A DNA stretch of 32,844 bases from Leptospirillum sp. (GTDB lineage: Bacteria; Nitrospirota; Leptospirillia; Leptospirillales; Leptospirillaceae): the NCBI GenBank assembly GCA_027323445.1, contig DAHWBS010000012.1, positions 247 to 33,090 on the forward strand, read 5' to 3'. Every line of letters begins with the position of its first letter. The first letter of the stretch is position 1. Position numbers and translations under genes: made by a program. Below, piece by piece: positions 1,435 to 12,622 of the stretch. Under the pieces are notes generated by a model, which saw only the letters and a program-made list of their open reading frames with translations, did not search any database and was not told the DNA's origin.

Positions 1435-2325
1435 TCAGGACCGTTTCAGGACCTCAAGAACCGTTTGACCAATCATTGAAGGGTTTTGAACAACCGTTAC
1501 GCCCATTCCCTCAAGTGCTTTCATCTTGTCTTTCGCTGTGCCCTGCCCACCTGAAACAATGGCACCTGCATGTCCCATCCGTCTGCCGGGAGGAGCTGTC
1601 TGTCCGGCTATGAATCCAACAACAGGCTTCTTCATATGGCATTTTGCGAAAGCAGCGGCCTTTTCCTCATCCTCCCCGCCGATTTCTCCGATCATGACAA
1701 CGGCTTCCGTCTCCGGGTCATTTTCAAAGAGTGCCAGAACATCAATAAAGTTCAAGCCCCGAACGGGATCGCCACCGATCCCGACACAAGTCGACTCTCC
1801 CAGTCCAAGCTGGGTCAACTGCCACACGGCCTCGTAGGTCAGGGTGCCACTTCTCGATACAACACCAACTTTTCCCCGTTTGTGGATATATCCAGGCATG
1901 ATGCCAATTTTTGCACCATCTGGGGTAATGATTCCCGGACAATTCGGACCAATCAGGCGAATAACGGATCCTTCATCATTCTTCGCATCAAGAAGACGTC
2001 TGACACGCACCATATCGAGAACCGGAATACCTTCCGTAATACAGACAATCAGGGGAATTTCAGCGGCAATGGACTCAAGGACCGCATCTGCGGCAAATGC
2101 CGGGGGAACAAAGATCAGAGAGACATCAGGATTCTCTGCTTCCACCGCTTCATGTACAGAATTCCACACGGGAAATCCTTCATGGGTTGTGCCGCCTTTT
2201 CCAGGTGTAACACCTCCAACAACATGCGTACCATAATCCCTGCACGCTCCAGCATGATAAGAACCTTCTTTTCCTGTAATACCCTGAACAATAACCTTTG
2301 TAGAGCGGTCAACAAGAATGCTCAT
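1435..2325 (-). CDS. sucD: Succinyl-CoA synthetase, alpha subunit
   Basis: A 296-residue protein of normal family length. With SucC it converts succinate, CoA and ATP to succinyl-CoA; in an rTCA cycle it runs in that direction. Visible family features are the CoA-binding Rossmann start [14 protein letters not shown], the [10 protein letters not shown] segment, and the phosphohistidine in GHAGAIV near residue 248. Its ATG overlaps the sucC stop by four bases (ATGA), so translation is coupled. It shares family with CcsB in the same cluster but has the short C-terminal helix ending VLEVLKRS typical of SucD. It is the last gene of frdB-frdA-sucC-sucD. Confidence 0.97.
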
Positions 2326-3512
2326 TTCCCCCCCTTCTTCACCGCAAGAACAGCTTTTTCGGCACCTTCAAACAACTCTTCCGCAACTTCAATGTCCAGC
2401 CCGGAGGCTCTCAGCATCTCCCGACCCTCGGCCGCATTTGTTCCCTGAAGACGGACAACGAGGGGAACATTAATCTTGACATCCTGGGCTGCGGCAATAA
2501 TTCCGCCGGCAATTCGCTCACATCGAACAATTCCACCAAAAATATTGACAAAAATCCCCTTGACATGGGGGTCGCTCAAAATCAGCCGGAAGGCCTGCTC
2601 AACCGTATCCTTGCTCGCTCCTCCACCGACATCCAGAAAGTTCGCAGGAGATCCGCCTGCCAAGGCAATCACATCCATTGTAGCCATCGCAAGCCCCGCC
2701 CCATTCACCATGCAGGCAATATTTCCATCAAGCTTGACATAATTGAGGTTGTACTTTGAGGCTTCAATCTCGAGAGGGTTTTCTTCGGCCAGATCTCTCA
2801 GAACCTTTGTTATGGGCTGACGATAGATTGCATTGTCATCAAATCCTACCTTGGCATCAAGAGCAACCAGCGTCTTGTCCGCAGTCAGGACAAGCGGATT
2901 GATTTCGACCATACTGGCATCTTTCTCATGGAAGAACCGGACAAGATCACCCACAAGCTTGACGAAGGAAGGCTGTGTCTCTGCAGGAAGCCCCAGAAAA
3001 TAAAAAAGTCGACGACCAATATGCGCTGAATAGCCTTCACAAGGATCTATGGAGAGATGGAAGATGCGCTCAGGATGTTTCTGGGCCACTTCCTCGATCT
3101 CCATACCCCCTTCAGTGCTCGCAATCAGTGATACTCTCCGGGAATTTCGATCAACGACCATGCCAAGGTAAAACTCCTTCTCGATTCGTGAGCCTTCCTC
3201 GATCCAGACCTTGCCAACCTGTCGCCCCTCCGGACCGGTTTGGTGCGTAACAAGGACCTTTCCAAGAAGACCTGCTACGATTTCAGGAATTTGGGAAATT
3301 TCCTTCGTAATCTTAACCCCGCCTGCCTTGCCTCTGCCGCCAGCGTGGATCTGTGCCTTGACCGCAAAAACCTGCCCATTGGCTCCCTGAAAGAGAGGGT
3401 GGGTCTTGATCGCCTTTTCTGCTTCCGAAACTGAATCAACCATTACACCTTTGGGAACGGGGATCTGGTACTGGCCAAAAAGCTCCTTGGCTTGGTATTC
3501 GTGGATATTCAA
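2322..3512 (-). CDS. sucC: Succinyl-CoA synthetase (ADP-forming), beta subunit
   Basis: A 396-residue ATP-grasp subunit that binds nucleotide and phosphate. The N-terminus [12 protein letters not shown], the segment [17 protein letters not shown], the Mg-site stretch VEINPLV and the C-terminal [15 protein letters not shown] are all canonical. The start codon is TTG: a GGAAGGAG site lies 6 bases upstream, and the family's conserved MNIHEYQ begins exactly there. The gene begins 43 bases after the frdA stop and overlaps sucD, so it belongs to an frdBA-sucCD operon. It makes succinyl-CoA for the 2-oxoglutarate:ferredoxin oxidoreductase step, which is not in this window. A paralogue, ccsA, lies about 8 kb upstream. 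Confidence 0.97.
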
Positions 3513-3555: not shown

Positions 3556-5178
3556 TCAAGCATTATCGCCTGATGTTTTCCGGCGATAATCCGGGAACAG
3601 CAAGGGCCCTTCAGGGCGCTCAACCCCATGGAACTCAGAATCAAGTTCCCGCTCAAAGCGTTTCACGTGGCCAAAACCAACTTCCTGCCACGAAAACGGC
3701 TTGCGACTCATACCTTCTCTGGCAGCAGCCAATCCCACCCGGTGACCAAAAACCAATACCTCCAGAAGAGAGTTTCCCATCAAACGGTTTTTTCCGTGTA
3801 ATCCGCCTGTCGTTTCCCCCGCCACATAGAGATGCTTGATCGGAGTCCGACCTTCCTTGTCGGCAGAGATTCCCCCATTTTGGTAATGGAGAGTCGGATA
3901 AACAAGGATCGGATGAGTCGAACAATCAACATCGTGCTTGGACATAAGCTTCAGGATATTGGGAAAGCGTCTCGCCACAGTTCCCTCGCCCATATCCCTG
4001 TCAATTGCCGCAAGGTCGAGGTAAACTCCAAAATGTCCGGCAGGAGTCCTGACTCCTCGCCCCTCAGAACACTCCCTGATAATGGCTGATGCCACGATAT
4101 CCCTTGTTTCAAGCTCGTTCACAAATCTTTTGCCTTCTTTGTTGTAAAGTCTGGCACCAGCTCCACGAACAGCTTCGGTAATAAGCATCCCAGCCATTTC
4201 AGAAGGATAGATCACACCAGTCGGATGATACTGGAAGCTTTCCATATGCAAGAGAGGCGAACCCATCCTGTAGGCCATTCCAAGACCGTCTCCAGTTGCC
4301 CCGAAATGATTGGAAGTAGCGAAACCACCGATATGAAGCCGACCGGTCCCACCGGTAGAGAGGAGTACAGACCTGGCCTTCACCCATTTAAGCTTTCCGC
4401 TGTCAACATCCAGAAGAACTGCTCCGGCACAGGAACCGTCCGGACCTTCAAGAAGCTCAACCGCAGGACTGAACTCCCAAAGGGGAATTCCGGAGTTTAG
4501 AAGATCTTCCTTCAGAACCCTGACAAGCTCGAGACCGGTATAGTCCTTTGCGGATATCAAACGGGGACGAGTTGTCCCGCCACCTTTCCTCAGAGCCAGA
4601 CTACCATGCGCATCCCGATCAAAAAGGACCCCCTTCCTGACCAACCAGGAAATCACTTCAGGGCCTTCCTTCACCAACACCGAGAGGAGTTCCGGGTCTC
4701 CAGTAAAATGTCCTCCTCTGTAGGCGTCCTTCAGATGCTGTGCAGGGCTGTCATCATCTCCCAAGGCAACCTGAATGCCACCTTCTGCCATAACGGTATT
4801 TGAGTCACCAATCCGAAGCTTTGTTGCAAGCAGGACAGAGGCCCCTGTTTCTTTTGCAAAAAGAGCCGCAGTAATCCCTGCTCCGCCCCCCCCAACAATA
4901 AGGAGGTCGACTTCGATATCCGGTTCGACGGGTCTTTCAATCTTCTCAGGATGAAGAAGCCGGCTCCTCGTTTCAAGGATATTGGCAATCTCCTCAGGAA
5001 CGACATTACCCTTGTTCGGACCAACCCTGAGAGTCGTTTTTCCCTCAGGCCGATAGTCCGGGTAATACCGGGCAAGAAGCGCCATTCGCTGTTCTGAAGT
5101 AAGAGATGGAGGATCATCCGTGATAAAGGTTGGAAGGTGATCATATAATGAAAGCGCCGTTTTCTGATCCTGGCTCAT
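3556..5178 (-). CDS. frdA: Fumarate reductase flavoprotein subunit (soluble type)
   Basis: A 540-residue FAD subunit that reduces fumarate to succinate in the rTCA cycle. An 88-residue N-terminal extension precedes the FAD motif DLLIVGGGGAG (91-101). Active-site landmarks are HPTG (318-321), the catalytic Arg region AVRGAGARLYN (Arg338), HYQNGG (431-436) and NRLMGNSLLE (Arg465). The usual covalent-flavin His of SdhA/FrdA (SHTV) is Asn127 here (SNTVMAEGG), so FAD is probably held non-covalently, as in L-aspartate oxidase and soluble fumarate reductases. The start overlaps the frdB stop (ATGA). No cytochrome b anchor genes accompany the pair. Aspartate oxidase is an alternative family reading, but the FeS partner and the rTCA context favour fumarate reductase. 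Confidence 0.9.
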   Translation of the reverse strand: MSQDQKTALSLYDHLPTFITDDPPSLTSEQRMALLARYYPDYRPEGKTTLRVGPNKGNVVPEEIANILETRSRLLHPEKIERPVEPDIEVDLLIVGGGGAGITAALFAKETGASVLLATKLRIGDSNTVMAEGGIQVALGDDDSPAQHLKDAYRGGHFTGDPELLSVLVKEGPEVISWLVRKGVLFDRDAHGSLALRKGGGTTRPRLISAKDYTGLELVRVLKEDLLNSGIPLWEFSPAVELLEGPDGSCAGAVLLDVDSGKLKWVKARSVLLSTGGTGRLHIGGFATSNHFGATGDGLGMAYRMGSPLLHMESFQYHPTGVIYPSEMAGMLITEAVRGAGARLYNKEGKRFVNELETRDIVASAIIRECSEGRGVRTPAGHFGVYLDLAAIDRDMGEGTVARRFPNILKLMSKHDVDCSTHPILVYPTLHYQNGGISADKEGRTPIKHLYVAGETTGGLHGKNRLMGNSLLEVLVFGHRVGLAAAREGMSRKPFSWQEVGFGHVKRFERELDSEFHGVERPEGPLLFPDYRRKTSGDNA

Positions 5179-5861
5179 TTAGCCTCACATTCGGACTTAA
5201 GCATTTCTGGGGAAAGAGAGAGAAGCCGCGACAGCTCCACATCAAAATCTCCCGACTGGATCTTTTCCATCCGGTGAAGGAGATTATCCGGAAACTTCAG
5301 CTCCTGACTCCCATAAGCCCTTCTTGCATAAAGAGCAATCTCATGGGGTGCCATCTCGGCAATGCAACGGGAAACACACAAGCCACACATGACACAACTC
5401 ATCGTTTCTTCCGTTACCCCTTTGAAATCACCAAAAACAGAGCGCCAGACAGCATCTCTCACATCTATTCCCTGGGGACAAACCTCTGTACAGGCATTAC
5501 AGTTCCTGCAGGTGGCCGACTCGGGATAGAGCTTGAAGAGCTCTTCTTTCGTATCTGCAATAGCTTCGATCTTGTAATCTGCACGCTGGGAAGGAAATGA
5601 CGGGATCAGGCTAAAGGCCATATTTTCCCTCACAAGGGTCTGGCAGGCCAATGCATTATGAAGATGGAAGTCTCCGGGCATCCTGTATACAGCTGCACAT
5701 GCTCCGCAAACACCCCCCAGACAGCCAATTCCATGAATGACTTCATGTCCCGTGTACCACATTGCCTGAATCATGGTCAGACCTTCAGGAACACTCCAGT
5801 CCTTTCCATTGATGCCCACCTTTATCATTCTTGCATTATCGGGTTTCTCATACTTGAACAT
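5175..5861 (-). CDS. frdB: Fumarate reductase iron-sulfur subunit
   Basis: A 228-residue electron-transfer subunit. The plant-type [2Fe-2S] ligands are Cys47, 52, 55 and 73 (GCLGGVCGAC...AC). Two ferredoxin-like quartets follow: CRNCNACTEVCP (Cys118, 121, 124, 128) and CVMCGLCVSRC (Cys156, 159, 162, 166). Canonical SdhB/FrdB carries one [4Fe-4S] and one [3Fe-4S] cluster; here the last site has a full four-Cys pattern but lacks the usual Pro. I chose ATG 5861, with GGGGAG 5 bases upstream, rather than the longer frame to 5903. It overlaps frdA by four bases. The electron donor is unknown; the lack of an anchor subunit suggests a soluble donor rather than quinol. Confidence 0.9.
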   Translation of the reverse strand: MFKYEKPDNARMIKVGINGKDWSVPEGLTMIQAMWYTGHEVIHGIGCLGGVCGACAAVYRMPGDFHLHNALACQTLVRENMAFSLIPSFPSQRADYKIEAIADTKEELFKLYPESATCRNCNACTEVCPQGIDVRDAVWRSVFGDFKGVTEETMSCVMCGLCVSRCIAEMAPHEIALYARRAYGSQELKFPDNLLHRMEKIQSGDFDVELSRLLSLSPEMLKSECEAK

Positions 5862-5953
5862 GGGAACTCCCCTGTTTAAAGTTGCTCGCTCAAGACACAC
5901 CACTCGAACCGATTGGAATTATGAACCATTTTCTTCTTTTATTCGTATGGGGG

Positions 5954-6009: not shown

Positions 6010-6618
6010 TTACTCCGGAGATCTGGAGATTTTTTTCCCGTTTCCTTTTCTCCGAACCATCTCCATAAGCTTCTGGAGTGCCAGGGAGTGAGCGGAGAAA
6101 TCAGGTGCCTCCTGACGGGGAGGCTGGTAACGGATCGCAACAAACCTGAGAACGGCAAGGGAAAGAATCAGAACCATCAATGCAAAGATCCGCTCAATAC
6201 CCTCTCCGGAAAACCATGTGACAACAGCTTCGGATAGAAGAAGGGCCAAGACGGTATCAACAATAAAAGTCACTTTTACACGACCAAGGATAAAGTAGGC
6301 CATGACCGTTCGAGAAACCTCAAGGAGAGCCAGCACCAGCAAGGAGTTCACAACAAGACTTTTCAGAACCATTAAAAGGCCGTTCGGAACTTGCCGGAAA
6401 GCAGCAAGTGCCGTTTCCGCAGTCCCCCATATCATGGCCACCACCTGGATAAAAAGAAGACTCAGGAGAACAAGTTTGATCCCCTTTACATACCATCCGG
6501 GAACCACGTTATGTACGGGCTGTTGATCATCCTCCAGCGATCCCGGCGGTAATGGAGCGGCACCTTCAGAAACAGATATCTTGTTATCTACAGGAGATGT
6601 TGTGTGGTCCTCAATCAT
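6010..6618 (-). CDS. PsiE-like four-helix integral membrane protein
   Basis: A 202-residue protein with a soluble, acidic N-terminal tail (about 40 residues), four hydrophobic segments (about 46-64, 82-102, 116-136, 142-163) and a basic C-terminal tail. The segment LLEVSRTVMAYFILGRVKV followed by a third helix resembles the phosphate-starvation-inducible PsiE family (Glu-x-x-Arg-Thr, then a polar loop before helix 3). PsiE has no established biochemical role. An AAGGA site lies 7 bases before ATG 6618. It sits between a terminator and frdB, where a membrane anchor for fumarate reductase might be expected. I see no paired heme-ligand His residues in the helices, so I do not call it FrdC. The family call is moderate. 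Confidence 0.6.
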   Translation of the reverse strand: MIEDHTTSPVDNKISVSEGAAPLPPGSLEDDQQPVHNVVPGWYVKGIKLVLLSLLFIQVVAMIWGTAETALAAFRQVPNGLLMVLKSLVVNSLLVLALLEVSRTVMAYFILGRVKVTFIVDTVLALLLSEAVVTWFSGEGIERIFALMVLILSLAVLRFVAIRYQPPRQEAPDFSAHSLALQKLMEMVRRKGNGKKISRSPE

Positions 6619-6764: not shown

Positions 6765-7565
6765 TCAGGATTTTTTGGGAACGGACCTCACTGCCGGACC
6801 ATCATACTCATACGAGCCTTCCTCAAGACGCCGGAAGGGTTTCTCTCTATTCCATTCCTCAACAATATGAGCAACAAGTCCAGGGATCCTGCCGATAATA
6901 AAAATCCCCTTGCCTGTCTTCCATGAAAGACCCATTTCAGAAATAACCGCTGCAATCATTCCATCAACATTTAACGGAAGAGGTTTTTGGGACTGAGCTT
7001 CCAAAGCATCCTGAATGGCAACCGCAAATTCCACATAACGACCGGAAAATCCATATTCTTTGGCCAACTCGAGAATGCGAAGGGTTCTGGGATCTCTCTT
7101 GTAGAGTTTATGGCCATACCCGGGAAAGCGTTTTTTCTTTTTAGAAAAATCATCTACAACCTGACGGGCATGCGCTGTTACATCACTCACATCCGAACCT
7201 AACTGCTCCTGATAGATTTTTGCGCATTGTTCAATAGCTCCGCCATGATGATCTCCAAGAGTCAAAACGCCAGCAGCAACAGCTGCGTTCAGGGGGTTAC
7301 CACCTGAATAAACCGTCCTGGCAGAAACAACGGATGGAGGACCGATCCCATGATCAATACAGGCAACCAGCATCGCCTCCATCATTTTACGTTCTTTCTC
7401 TGTAGGCAACTCCCCTTTCAGGACCAGATAAATTCCTTCGGCAAAAGAAACATTGCCGATCAGGTCATCCAGTGGATATCCACGGACCACCGTTTTTCCA
7501 TCAACTTGTCCTGCAACAGATGTTCTCCAGTTTTTTGTTGAGGATCCTTCACCTTTTTCACTCAT
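6765..7565 (-). CDS. ccl: Citryl-CoA lyase
   Basis: A 266-residue member of the citrate-synthase fold, much shorter than a true citrate synthase (about 370-430 residues). In the two-enzyme citrate cleavage known from Hydrogenobacter thermophilus, this protein splits citryl-CoA to acetyl-CoA and oxaloacetate. Catalytic residues of the superfamily are visible: His107 (GDHHGGA), His152 (GYGHKLYKRDPRT) and Asp201 (NVDGMIAA). The SD is modest (GGGAG, 10 bases before ATG 7565). Terminators lie on both sides, so it may be transcribed alone. The assignment as lyase rather than a short citrate or methylcitrate synthase rests on length and on ccsA and ccsB nearby; the ATP-citrate lyase C-terminal domain is its close relative. 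Confidence 0.9.
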   Translation of the reverse strand: MSEKGEGSSTKNWRTSVAGQVDGKTVVRGYPLDDLIGNVSFAEGIYLVLKGELPTEKERKMMEAMLVACIDHGIGPPSVVSARTVYSGGNPLNAAVAAGVLTLGDHHGGAIEQCAKIYQEQLGSDVSDVTAHARQVVDDFSKKKKRFPGYGHKLYKRDPRTLRILELAKEYGFSGRYVEFAVAIQDALEAQSQKPLPLNVDGMIAAVISEMGLSWKTGKGIFIIGRIPGLVAHIVEEWNREKPFRRLEEGSYEYDGPAVRSVPKKS

Positions 7566-7673: not shown

Positions 7674-9596
7674 TTAGGCTTTACGAGATTTCACATAGGA
7701 CAGTGTCCCGCCTGCTGCCACAATCTCGAGGTCGCGGCTGCTTAATGCGTGAGTCACAGGAATGGATAGTCCCTTTGTCACATTTTTCAGTGTAAGGGGT
7801 TTTTTATCCAGATGGGCTGTTTCCAGCTCAAGGACATCTCCCGCATCAACCTTGTCATAATCGGATTCATTGACGAAAGTTAGAGGAAGAATGCCGAAGT
7901 TGATCAGGTTTGCCAAATGGATTCTAGCAAATGACTTCGTAATGACTCCCTTGATACCGAGATACATCGGAGCAAGTGCCGCATGCTCACGACTGGACCC
8001 CTGTCCGTAGTTGTTTCCACCAATGATAAAGCCACCACCTTCTTCCTTTGCCCTTTTGGGGAAAGTAGGATCAATCGCTTCAAAAACATACTGACTGATA
8101 GCGGGCACATTTGAGCGAAGGGGGAGCACTTTGGCACCAGCAGGCATAATATGGTCTGTGGTGATATTGTCGCCCACCTTGAGCAAGGCCTTTCCCTTGA
8201 TTTCAGGAGCAATCCTGTCACGGGTCGGAAGGGGCTTGATGTTTGGCCCTCTCATGATCTCAACAGATTTTCCGTCAGCCTGCGGGAAGATAAACATGCG
8301 GTCATCGAGTACATACTCTGAAGGAAGATCGATCTGCTCGAACTTCACACCCAGATCCCGAGGATCCGTAATCACACCTGTAATGGCACAAGCTGCAGCA
8401 ACTTCGGGGCTGGCCAAATACACTTTTGCATCTTTGGTACCACTGCGTCCTTCAAAATTACGATTGAATGTACGGACCGAAACACCACCGGAAGGAGGAG
8501 CAAAGCCCATACCGATACATGGACCACAAGCACTTTCGAGAAGACGGGCTCCTGCGGTGATCATGTTTCCGAGAACACCGTTCTGAGAGATCATCTCAAG
8601 GGTCTGACGGGATCCTGGAGAAAAACCAAGGCTCACCCCCGGACTGACCATTTTTCCCTTCATCAGATGAGAAATCGTCATCAAATCCTTGAAGGAAGAG
8701 TTTGTGCAGGAACCGATCGCAACCTGGGAAACAGGAATACCCTGAATATCACGAACTTTCACCACATTGTCAGGAGAGTGTGGCTGTGCGATCAGCGGCT
8801 CGAGGGTATCCAGATCAATCTCAACGGTTTCATCATAAGTGGCACCAGGATCAGCAGCATATTCGCGATAATCCTTTTCCCGACCCTGCGCCTTAAGATA
8901 TTCCCTTGTCCTGTCATCGCTCGGGAATATTGAAGTCGTCGCACCGAGCTCCGCCCCCATATTGGTGATCGTGGAGCGCTCCGGAACGGAAAGGGAGCGA
9001 ACACCTTCTCCATTGTATTCAAAGATCCGGTTGACACCACCCTTGACGGTCAAACGGCGCAACAGCTCAAGGATCACGTCCTTAGCCGAAACAAAAGGCT
9101 GCAAACGCCCTGTTAATTTGACCTGGACAACTTTAGGCATAGTGAGATGAAATGCTTCGCCACCCATAGCCAAAGCCACATCAAGACCGCCGGCACCAAT
9201 GGCAATCATTCCTACGCCGCCATTGGTCGGTGTGTGGCTGTCAGAACCAAGAAGAGTTTTTCCCGGCTTACCAAATCGCTCGAGATGCACCTGATGACAG
9301 ATACCATTACCAGGGCGGGAGAACACAATCCCGTATCGGGCAGCAACGGTCTGAAGATAGCGGTGATCGTCTGCATTTTCAAAGCCCGTCTGCAACATGT
9401 TGTGATCAACATAGGAAACAGAAAGCTCCGTTTTGACACGATCAAGTCCAAGAGCTTCAAACTGAAGGTAGGCCATTGTCCCGGTAGCATCTTGAGTGAG
9501 TGTCTGATCGATCCGTATGGCAACTTCTTTTCCAGCAACAATTTCTCCGGAAACAAGGTGTTCTTTAAAAATTTTCTGCGTCAGATTAAGCGCCAT
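7674..9596 (-). CDS. Aconitate hydratase (about 640-residue type)
   Basis: A 640-residue [4Fe-4S] enzyme interconverting isocitrate and citrate; in rTCA it supplies citrate to CcsAB. Substrate-site segment DQTLTQDATGTMA, then LGSDSHTPTNGGVGM, the first cluster Cys in GSCTNSSF, and the remaining two in SACGPCIGMG are all present. The swivel domain carries GGNNYGQGSSREHAAL. The length matches the compact aconitase subfamily rather than AcnA (about 890) or AcnB (about 860). AAGGAG lies 8 bases before ATG 9596. Upstream (transcription order) are the 49-residue membrane protein and ccsBA; a strong terminator follows. Confidence 0.96.
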   Translation of the reverse strand: MALNLTQKIFKEHLVSGEIVAGKEVAIRIDQTLTQDATGTMAYLQFEALGLDRVKTELSVSYVDHNMLQTGFENADDHRYLQTVAARYGIVFSRPGNGICHQVHLERFGKPGKTLLGSDSHTPTNGGVGMIAIGAGGLDVALAMGGEAFHLTMPKVVQVKLTGRLQPFVSAKDVILELLRRLTVKGGVNRIFEYNGEGVRSLSVPERSTITNMGAELGATTSIFPSDDRTREYLKAQGREKDYREYAADPGATYDETVEIDLDTLEPLIAQPHSPDNVVKVRDIQGIPVSQVAIGSCTNSSFKDLMTISHLMKGKMVSPGVSLGFSPGSRQTLEMISQNGVLGNMITAGARLLESACGPCIGMGFAPPSGGVSVRTFNRNFEGRSGTKDAKVYLASPEVAAACAITGVITDPRDLGVKFEQIDLPSEYVLDDRMFIFPQADGKSVEIMRGPNIKPLPTRDRIAPEIKGKALLKVGDNITTDHIMPAGAKVLPLRSNVPAISQYVFEAIDPTFPKRAKEEGGGFIIGGNNYGQGSSREHAALAPMYLGIKGVITKSFARIHLANLINFGILPLTFVNESDYDKVDAGDVLELETAHLDKKPLTLKNVTKGLSIPVTHALSSRDLEIVAAGGTLSYVKSRKA

Positions 9597-9869
9597 TGCT
9601 TAAACTCCTTAATGGAATTGTTAAGATTGGATTGGCTATTCCTTCCGGTCAGGAAAGGTGCCGATTGATTCGGCTCGGTCAATATGGGGAACTACAGGTA
9701 ATCCTTCGAAAGCAGTCGGAGACTTTCTTGTAACAAATGGCACCATCGCCAATTCGTAAAGGTTCATCCGGATTCAGACGAAGTTCTCAACACGGCTCAA
9801 AAATCGCGTGCATGAGAAGGGAACCTGCCCGGGAAGCCCCGGACAGGTCAACAACTCAATCAATAAAAA
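9597..9869. other. Intergenic region with imperfect hairpin
   Basis: A 273-base gap between the 49-residue gene and aconitase. An imperfect stem (CCTGcCCGGG, 9824-9833, with its partner up to 9847) lies about 20 bases after the small gene; on the minus strand it is followed by only a weak T/C tract, so it could be a poor terminator or a processing site. I see no convincing promoter for aconitase and no coding frame with an SD. Confidence 0.5.
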
Positions 9870-10019
9870 CTACGGCCAAGGCCAAATCATGTGATGAGAC
9901 ACCACAGCATTGGTTTCAGCAGACTTACCTAAAAATAAGATAAAAAATAGCGTTCCACCCACAACGATTGCTGCCAGGACAAGATTCTTTCCCATTCCCT
10001 GAGATTGCTGTTCTGCCAT
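9870..10019 (-). CDS. Small single-pass membrane protein in the rTCA cluster
   Basis: A 49-residue frame with one of the best SD sequences in the window, GGAGGAGGTGA, 6 bases before ATG 10019. The protein has a polar N-terminus with Gln-rich MAEQQSQGMGK, one hydrophobic helix (about 13-31, LVLAAIVVGGTLFFILFLG) and a short C-terminal tail ending WPWP. It begins 31 bases after the ccsB stop and so is probably on the ccsAB transcript. It is not a fragment of a longer frame and I recognise no family. It could be an assembly factor, a membrane tether for soluble rTCA enzymes, or a respiratory-complex accessory peptide; nothing in the sequence decides. Confidence 0.7.
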   Translation of the reverse strand: MAEQQSQGMGKNLVLAAIVVGGTLFFILFLGKSAETNAVVSHHMIWPWP

Positions 10020-10050
10020 TTCGAATCACCTCCTCCCAATTAATGTTGAA

Positions 10051-11037
10051 CTACCTGATTGTGGAATAGAGAGGAGCCACATGTGCGGCGGTGCTGTCCT
10101 CAAAATCCCTGGGAACACCAAGGCTCTCGATCGCAGAAACAAGCTCATGATAGTAAAAAGCCACTTTGACAGGATACTTTTTCCCTGCCGCATCAAGACG
10201 CTCGATCTTGTCAGTCGCCTTCCCCATTCCTCTTTCCACAATGGCCCCTGCATGACCAAAAGCAACACCTTCAGGCATTCTTTCCTGAAAACGACCGGAA
10301 ATAAAAGCCGCCACAGGTTTCTTGAAAACACCAGAGGTAATCAACTCGGCAGCCTGCTCTTCATAGGATCCGCCTGGTTCACCCAACATTACCACACCCT
10401 TGACATTTGGATCGTCCTTGACCTGCAGGAGGACATCCGCATAAGTGGTGTTGCTTATAATATCCCCTCCGATAGCCAACGCACAATAGGTACCCCAGCC
10501 TCTTCGCTTGAACATCTCTGCGGTTGTGACCGTCAAGCCACCGCTTTTTGAAATAATAAGCAGTCCGCCCTGGCGAAAGGCTACCGTTGGATCCTTGCCA
10601 CCAATAGCTCCGATTCTCCCAACCGAAGGAACGAAACAGCCAAGACTTGTCCCTCCGACAATAATAGCATTTCGTCGGACCTTTTCCTGATAGATGATTT
10701 CGGAGTCACGGATTGGAACATGCTCGGTGATGATATAAATCACCTTGATCTCCGCATCGAGACACTCCATGACCGCATCAAGGACAGAAGCCGGTGGCAC
10801 ATATATGAGTGCGGTATTAATTTTTGACCCGACAGCCGGATCTTTTTTGGCCTGAAAGAGAGTGTCAAAAACAGGGACAGCAAGTTCTGAGGAACCACCC
10901 CTTCCGGGAGTGACACCCGCTTTGATGATTCCGGGATAAAGAGCTTCGGACTCCTTGATCACCTGAGATGCTTCCCTCCCTGTAGCACCAATCACAACAA
11001 TACCAGTGTTTTCATTTAAATAGACGGGGCCCTTCAA
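10051..11037 (-). CDS. ccsB: Citryl-CoA synthetase, small (SucD-like) subunit
   Basis: A 328-residue paralogue of SucD. With CcsA it makes citryl-CoA from citrate, CoA and ATP, the first half of two-step citrate cleavage. It shows the CoA-binding start GIVVIGATGREAS, the TPGRGG segment and the phosphohistidine motif FGHAGAIVERG. It is longer at the C-terminus than SucD, as in CcsB (about 36 kDa). I place the start at TTG 11037, where AAGGAGG lies 5 bases upstream; an in-frame TTG at 11055 would put that SD inside the gene. It lies 54 bases after ccsA. The distinction from SucD rests on divergence, extra length, the separate true sucCD and the neighbouring lyase. Confidence 0.9.
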   Translation of the reverse strand: MKGPVYLNENTGIVVIGATGREASQVIKESEALYPGIIKAGVTPGRGGSSELAVPVFDTLFQAKKDPAVGSKINTALIYVPPASVLDAVMECLDAEIKVIYIITEHVPIRDSEIIYQEKVRRNAIIVGGTSLGCFVPSVGRIGAIGGKDPTVAFRQGGLLIISKSGGLTVTTAEMFKRRGWGTYCALAIGGDIISNTTYADVLLQVKDDPNVKGVVMLGEPGGSYEEQAAELITSGVFKKPVAAFISGRFQERMPEGVAFGHAGAIVERGMGKATDKIERLDAAGKKYPVKVAFYYHELVSAIESLGVPRDFEDSTAAHVAPLYSTIR

Positions 11038-11091
11038 ACGTTCCTCCTTAGACAAAGTTGTCCTGTAAGTCCGGAATAATCCTATAGTAGA

Positions 11092-12342
11092 TTATACAAT
11101 TTGCTCTGGCTGATAATTGACATGCTTGATCAAAAGCTCTTTCAGGCGAAGAGGAGCCTCCGTGATCGGAAGCTGGGAGTCATAAATATCTCCCTTGATG
11201 CCGTTGCGAACAAAGCACTCATGTAACATCTTCAAACCCTTTACATATTCCGGACCACTTCGACGAACAACCCAGATCAAATCCTTGTTCAAGACCCCTT
11301 CGGCATTCATGTCATCCAATGCCTTGGCCAAACCTTCTCCAAGAGTTACGTCAATTCTGGTGTTACTGGCCGTTCCGCCACAAACCAGAACAGCCTTCAA
11401 CCCTGGCTTGGACAAAATAATACGGGCAATCTTGTACATTTTTTCAGCAGGAGGGTTTCCACCGATGTCGGTCAGATTGGCCACACGAAGACCGGCCTCG
11501 ATCGCAGTTTCCGCAGTCACAGTGCTGCCGCCGCCACCAAAAGTCATCAGGGCAACATCTCCATCGAGTTCAACATAAGAGCCGGCCTTGCCCCGATGGT
11601 CTCCCTGATCGATCAGGATAGCATCCTGTTCTCTCTGCGAGAGAGGACGTCCCATATCACCGCGCGCAGAAAAACGGATGGAAGGAGGAATCGCTGCATC
11701 ATCATCCAAAAGGACGACGGCATCCGCAGCAACCAGCTTTTTCTTGTCCCCGACCTTGGCGACAACAAGAGGATTGATCTCCAAAAGGCGACACTCTGTT
11801 TCCCAGAACGCCTTAAAAACATTGACGATGATCTCAGAAAGGGGGCGCAACATCTCAGGGTCTGAAAAGCCGATCCCGACCAAAAACTTCCTGATCTGGT
11901 ATGGGTAGATAGCCCGAACATCTCCCACTATATAGGTGTGAATCAACTTATGATCAATCTCTTCGACTTCCATACCGCCATGCTCGCTGAAAGTAATGGC
12001 AGGAGCACGATCTTTTGTCGAGTAGGTAACGCTCAGGTAGTACTCTTTCTGGATATCAAGCTTTTCGCAAACGATCGCCCCAACAGATTTCTCGCCATAG
12101 ACTTCGCGAGTAGCCAAATCCTTGAATACATCAACGGCCTTCGTTTTGTCGGTAACAACCTTTACCGCTCCGGCCTTGCCCCTTTTGCCTACTAAAACCA
12201 TGGATTTAATTACAACGGCAGGCTGTTTTTCGATAAACTCGCGAACTTTCTCGTTTGGCTCGGTAGCAAAAACAAACTTTGGCGAAGGAATCTGAAATTT
12301 TTTATAGATAGATTCGAGTGCCTCATGCTCATAAAGTTTCAT
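11092..12342 (-). CDS. ccsA: Citryl-CoA synthetase, large (SucC-like) subunit
   Basis: A 416-residue ATP-grasp protein related to SucC but clearly divergent. It retains the lysine/glycine segment VGKRGKAGAVKVV, the metal-site stretch LEINPLVV, and in the C-terminal domain TFGGGGSTVTAETA and TDIGGNPPAEK where SucC has [11 protein letters not shown] and DVGGGASKD. The size (about 46 kDa) matches CcsA of Hydrogenobacter. An AAGGAG lies 9 bases before ATG 12342, and a promoter candidate lies about 80 bases upstream. It is the first gene of the cluster in transcription order and is divergent from tRNA-Glu. A second succinyl-CoA synthetase or another acyl-CoA synthetase is the alternative, made less likely by the neighbouring lyase. 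Confidence 0.9.
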   Translation of the reverse strand: MKLYEHEALESIYKKFQIPSPKFVFATEPNEKVREFIEKQPAVVIKSMVLVGKRGKAGAVKVVTDKTKAVDVFKDLATREVYGEKSVGAIVCEKLDIQKEYYLSVTYSTKDRAPAITFSEHGGMEVEEIDHKLIHTYIVGDVRAIYPYQIRKFLVGIGFSDPEMLRPLSEIIVNVFKAFWETECRLLEINPLVVAKVGDKKKLVAADAVVLLDDDAAIPPSIRFSARGDMGRPLSQREQDAILIDQGDHRGKAGSYVELDGDVALMTFGGGGSTVTAETAIEAGLRVANLTDIGGNPPAEKMYKIARIILSKPGLKAVLVCGGTASNTRIDVTLGEGLAKALDDMNAEGVLNKDLIWVVRRSGPEYVKGLKMLHECFVRNGIKGDIYDSQLPITEAPLRLKELLIKHVNYQPEQIV

Positions 12343-12544: not shown

Positions 12545-12622
12545 GTCCCCATCGTCTAGTTAGGCCTAGGACATCGCCCTTTCACGGCGGTAACACCGGT
12601 TCAAATCCGGTTGGGGACGCCA
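12545..12622 (+). tRNA. tRNA-Glu (anticodon TTC), CCA encoded
   Basis: The 7-bp acceptor stem GTCCCCA/TGGGGAC (12545-12551 with 12612-12618) is perfect. A D-arm follows (12554-12572), then an anticodon stem TCGCC/GGCGG with loop CTTTCAC, anticodon TTC at 12581-12583. The T-arm contains GGTTCAAATCC. The discriminator is G and CCA is encoded (12620-12622). A weak 6-bp hairpin (ATGCAG/CTGCAT) just after it lacks a T-run. Confidence 0.97.

Follow-up and report, generated by a model that had tools for sequence, protein, structure and literature searches.

CydX has one membrane helix and its gene lies beside the genes of its partner, while KdpF and AcrZ are likewise small single-helix accessory subunits encoded beside the partner. 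In Synechocystis, a 44-aa protein, AcnSP, is described as a regulator of aconitase (PMC7336809). Since 2008, descriptions of the Leptospirillum rTCA cluster have shown a 474-nt gap at the site studied here (PMC2607301). In the accessible part of that paper, the Leptospirillum ferriphilum map shows the ccsB-acnA spot as a 474-nt inter-operon region with no ORF listed, and orf1-orf3 are the additional ORFs named for the two clusters. The same text reports that no evident terminator was seen in this ccs-ccl gap, that RT-PCR spanned it, and that no known FRD anchor was found, orf1 being proposed as the anchor of fumarate reductase (PMC2607301). A 2020 paper on thioredoxin-fold proteins again gives ccs and ccl as separate transcriptional units (PMC7084401). 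As far as its accessible text goes, the literature we searched on Leptospirillum citryl-CoA synthetase, ccsB, small proteins or ORFs, and omics makes no mention of the microprotein ORF described below.

Results

The window is the whole stretch of Leptospirillum sp. DNA that was analysed, 32,844 nt long. Its features around the microprotein are the following, the genes from citryl-CoA lyase to sucD (orf1 apart) being named by Pfam and the published L. ferriphilum order.

11092-12342, minus strand: ccsA, citryl-CoA synthetase large subunit (ATP-grasp, Citrate_bind)
10051-11055, minus strand: ccsB, citryl-CoA synthetase small subunit (CoA_binding, Ligase_CoA)
10026-10034, minus strand: Shine-Dalgarno sequence AGGAGGTGA of the microprotein; GGAGG or GGGGGTGA type in 19/19 loci
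9870-10019, minus strand: microprotein gene, 49 aa, single-pass membrane protein; ATG at 10019, stop TAG at 9872-9870
9822-9849, minus strand: 12-pair GC-rich hairpin directly past the microprotein stop, without a T-run in the window
7674-9596, minus strand: aconitase, which opens the next unit, the published ccl operon (Pfam and published order)
6765-7565, minus strand: citrate-synthase-like gene, taken as citryl-CoA lyase
6010-6618, minus strand: orf1, PsiE-like membrane protein between ccl and frdB (PF06146, E 7e-6)
5175-5903, minus strand: FrdB-like
3556-5178, minus strand: FrdA-like
2322-3512, minus strand: sucC
1435-2325, minus strand: sucD

A tRNA gene lies upstream of ccsA on the opposite strand (12545-12619, plus). 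The listed ccsB ORF begins with TTG at 11055 and is about six residues longer than most relatives; translation probably begins a few codons further in.

The translation of 9870-10019 on the minus strand is MAEQQSQGMGKNLVLAAIVVGGTLFFILFLGKSAETNAVVSHHMIWPWP. The sequence-only reading had presented this frame as an unannotated 49-residue ORF with an excellent Shine-Dalgarno sequence and one transmembrane helix, and our analysis bears this out: the full AGGAGGTGA stands upstream of the ATG, with 9 nt from GGAGG to the start (10028-10020), and both a Kyte-Doolittle core and an AlphaFold2 helix are found. The hydrophobic core covers residues 13-31 (Kyte-Doolittle mean 2.67 over 19 residues), and the AlphaFold2 model is a single helix over residues 2-45, with a mean pLDDT >90 across residues 11-30. 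The window holds 162 ORFs of 40-70 aa, of which 3 reach a Kyte-Doolittle value of 2.0, and among these three only 9870-10019 also has an upstream Shine-Dalgarno core. The neighbours ccsB and aconitase had been named correctly, as Pfam confirms, and "unannotated" holds relative to the published L. ferriphilum cluster map, its sole basis.

Across the 19 loci at which we found it, the microprotein measures 47-55 aa and its best 19-residue Kyte-Doolittle mean is 2.47-3.25 in every case. Every member has 1-2 K/R before the core and 1 after it; with nearly as many positive charges on one side as on the other, the topology is ambiguous and the MAEE end may be outside.

Searches against known families gave no convincing match for the 18 distinct members in Pfam (best E 0.029) or NCBIfam (best E 0.031), none in PHROGs (best E 0.043), only E 2.7 in a PDB search, and no match in plasmids, phages or viral contigs. 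Three weak hits were considered and set aside. An NCBIfam beta-lactamase model matched 5/18 members (best E 0.031) and is taken as chance; the phage holin Phage_holin_3_6 matched 4/18 (best E 0.029), the neighbours being rTCA genes and no phage record matching; and the Sdh_cyt anchor matched 1/18 (E 0.06), the microprotein having a single helix and its invariant His in the tail, not the membrane. An aconitase microprotein of the AcnSP type was likewise rejected, the similarity to the cluster aconitase reaching only BLASTP E 13. The microprotein is a single-helix microprotein in an enzyme operon, which is a known kind, and its family is new within the libraries searched.

The microprotein was found in 19/21 genomes of the class (E 9.7e-30 to 0.0092), and a profile built from the 19 members recovers the same 19 at E 1e-19 or better. 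The tblastn search of the loci overlooked the frame in G009 and G015, where it nevertheless lies at the same place. A single-sequence search of GTDB contigs returned one locus only, YS4.bin12, which is the same place as in G005 and is counted once. In 19/19 genomes the frame sits, in unchanged gene order, between ccsB and aconitase, starts with ATG behind a G-rich Shine-Dalgarno sequence and ends in Trp-Pro. A frame or start that varies among close relatives had been named beforehand as counting against the gene; both are conserved here, as are the Shine-Dalgarno sequence and the two ends of the protein. Eight residues are invariant among the 18 distinct proteins (M1, A2, G10, G31, H42, P47, W48 and P49). 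G000 and G004 encode the same protein, so that the 19 loci make 18 alignment rows.

The other check proposed was a comparison of synonymous with nonsynonymous change. G000 and G004 differ by 7 changes, all at third positions and synonymous, against 0 amino-acid changes. In 7 disjoint pairs, which take in 14/19 genomes, 131 changes (83 at third positions) produce 43 amino-acid changes; when the same changes are placed at random 2000 times, the mean is 82.6 and the minimum 68, with 3.9 stops expected. NG86 omega, given only for pairs with 0 < dS < 1.5, is <0.13 in most close pairs; it is higher in some very close pairs differing by only 4-5 changes (G020/G014 0.31, G020/G012 0.46) and reaches 0.4 in two distant pairs. 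In the three g1 genomes the microprotein frame is 91-95% identical and gap-free, and the gap that follows shows 78-84% identity and 6-11 gap positions. The results show that the microprotein is under purifying selection. Since this conservation and selection lie far beyond chance, we regard 9870-10019 as a real gene with near certainty.

We then compared the phylum as a whole. The profile matches 118/295 genomes at E 1 or better; the best match outside the class (E 1.1e-4) falls within a 576-aa frame, and the matches outside the class are taken as chance hydrophobic matches. Judged from these sequence searches, the microprotein is confined to one class among the 295 genomes of the phylum. A ccsB match of E 1e-60 or better is present in 23/295 genomes, namely the 19 and four of one other family (L091-L094). 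These four carry ccsAB and show neither a microprotein match nor a small frame of such kind in the cluster, which indicates that citryl-CoA synthetase has no general need of the microprotein. Their gene order is ccsA, ccsB, a 743-749-residue frame, a ccl-like gene and aconitase; by our own reading of its sequence the 743-749-residue frame appears isocitrate dehydrogenase-like. The aconitase of these four genomes is also different, about 740 aa long and about 35% identical to that of the window.

The two genomes of the class without a microprotein match, G017 and G019, have no ccsB match either; since they are 89% and 70% complete, respectively, this joint absence may reflect missing contigs. 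On its stretch L095 (1-8892), G019 keeps frdBA-sucCD with an unrelated 1209-residue open frame as upstream neighbour, and the genome gives no match for the microprotein, ccsB or ccl, its only aconitase match being a distant one. Either its rTCA cluster is rearranged or lost, or there is a binning gap. Because G019 keeps frdBA-sucCD and gives no match for those three, the microprotein is weakly tied to ccs and not to frd.

The sequence-only reading had also placed the gene between ccsB and aconitase. The position stands in 19/19 genomes and needs correction as to the operon, which is that of ccs and not of aconitase, as a terminator precedes acn in 14/19. In the window the microprotein starts 31 nt after the ccsB stop codon and is followed by a 273-nt gap to aconitase; across the loci a short and steady spacer of about 30-40 nt separates it from ccsB, and the gap to acn is long, 231-344 nt. 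The 14 genomes with an intrinsic terminator directly after the microprotein are 12/12 of genus g5, G006 and G001, each with a single hairpin of -21 to -30 kcal/mol followed by 5-9 T. These terminators come from our own scan, judged against mononucleotide shuffles (20 per genome), none of which reached the observed value in any genome; the standard terminator scan does not list them, the suspected cause being its restriction to loops of 3-8 without bulges. By our scan the other 5/19 genomes, window included, have no terminator: the three g1 genomes, to which the window belongs, and two g3 genomes carry a strong hairpin without a T-run.

As the terminator directly follows the microprotein and precedes aconitase in 14/19 genomes, the microprotein most likely closes the ccs operon (ccsA-ccsB-microprotein), and it is very probably co-expressed with ccsAB. 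Some read-through into acn is likely, because RT-PCR crossed the ccs-ccl gap in L. ferriphilum.

The other membrane protein of the cluster, orf1, was aligned in 14 rows, drawn from 18 stretches with an orf1 match. Its centre is strongly conserved, without a conserved His in the membrane, which disfavours it as a fumarate reductase anchor of the haem-b type. Its structure model has a mean pLDDT of 64.

Discussion

Based on gene order, we propose tentatively, with a probability of about 0.4, that the microprotein acts on citryl-CoA synthetase as a membrane adaptor or accessory subunit; this is the most economical idea for a gene that is fixed in the operon of one complex, after ccsB in 19/19 genomes. 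Made together with CcsAB as the third product of the ccs operon, it would set its helix in the inner membrane, with the MAEE-type N-terminus in the cytoplasm, touching citryl-CoA synthetase or a complex that holds it, and the His/Trp/Pro tail at the outer interface. The citrate-cleaving step might then be partly held at, or tuned by, the membrane. A stronger form, in which a lineage-only third subunit would be a true tether that anchors citryl-CoA synthetase and the citrate-cleaving branch of the rTCA cycle at the inner membrane of these iron-oxidising acidophiles, seems doubtful to us. CcsA and CcsB of Aquifex aeolicus are tabulated from soluble extract (PMC10052474), which counts against a membrane role. 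In an alignment of CcsA and CcsB with those of the four microprotein-less genomes we found no docking feature special to the lineage and no added hydrophobic segment; the aligned rows differ in shifted N-termini and short losses within loops.

A somewhat unlikely alternative is that the microprotein is a lineage-specific membrane peptide of acidophile stress or homeostasis, in the manner of the small membrane proteins of E. coli, which has no rTCA partner and owes its place in a strongly expressed operon to dosage. Its restriction to one class is consistent with this, as is its faster divergence: identity to the window microprotein drops to 41-48% in the other large genus, where CcsA and CcsB keep about 79-87%. 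A free-standing peptide of this sort fits poorly, however, with a place after ccsB that is unmoved in 19/19 genomes and with the conservation of both ends. We consider it rather improbable that the microprotein is an extra subunit of a membrane complex riding in the ccs operon, most likely the FrdAB-orf1 fumarate reductase. That enzyme, in the ccl operon, lacks a known membrane anchor, and the 2008 paper, which found none, proposed orf1 (PMC2607301); one of the 18 members has the weak Sdh_cyt match (E 0.06), and in all 19 genomes the cluster stays together over the length of the available stretches. Yet this match is far below the Pfam cut-off, the single helix contains no conserved His, the gene lies in the other operon, ahead of the terminator, and G019 has frdBA and no microprotein match.

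A regulatory role in cis, as leader peptide or attenuator of the downstream acn-ccl operon, could account for the terminator-like hairpin between the microprotein and acn and for RT-PCR crossing the gap in the 2008 report (PMC2607301). It is nevertheless very improbable: the amino-acid sequence is conserved to the far C-terminus despite strongly diverged codons, acn is 231-344 nt away, and Rfam shows nothing in the stretch at E 1 or better except a tRNA. That the frame is a chance ORF, as its short length and lack of a domain might suggest, has a negligible probability in view of the start, frame, Shine-Dalgarno sequence and ends kept in 19/19 loci and of the selection tests.

The conserved third ccs gene means that an overlooked membrane partner may exist for citryl-CoA synthetase in this lineage, and the microprotein offers a small, direct target on the question of whether acidophile rTCA enzymes work at the membrane. 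Should it be a general membrane peptide, the gain would be limited to a corrected annotation. In either case the published cluster map misses a real gene.

The membrane setting is less unexpected than the sequence-only reading supposed, since another membrane protein, orf1, the proposed fumarate reductase anchor, is encoded in this cluster too. Like the microprotein, orf1 is a membrane protein inside the same rTCA cluster and conserved in the lineage, but it has about 200 aa and several helices, belongs to the PsiE family and lies in the ccl operon. AcnSP shares the feature of a microprotein acting on a TCA-cycle enzyme (PMC7336809); it differs in that it resembles the aconitase N-terminus, whereas the window microprotein is a membrane helix with no aconitase match. 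Subunits of the CydX type have no sequence match to the microprotein in Pfam or NCBIfam and resemble it in kind, being near 30-55 aa and hard to annotate, as described for CydX of cytochrome bd (PMC4325964). The partners of CydX, KdpF and AcrZ are integral membrane complexes; the operon partner of the microprotein, in contrast, is an enzyme of the succinyl-CoA synthetase superfamily.
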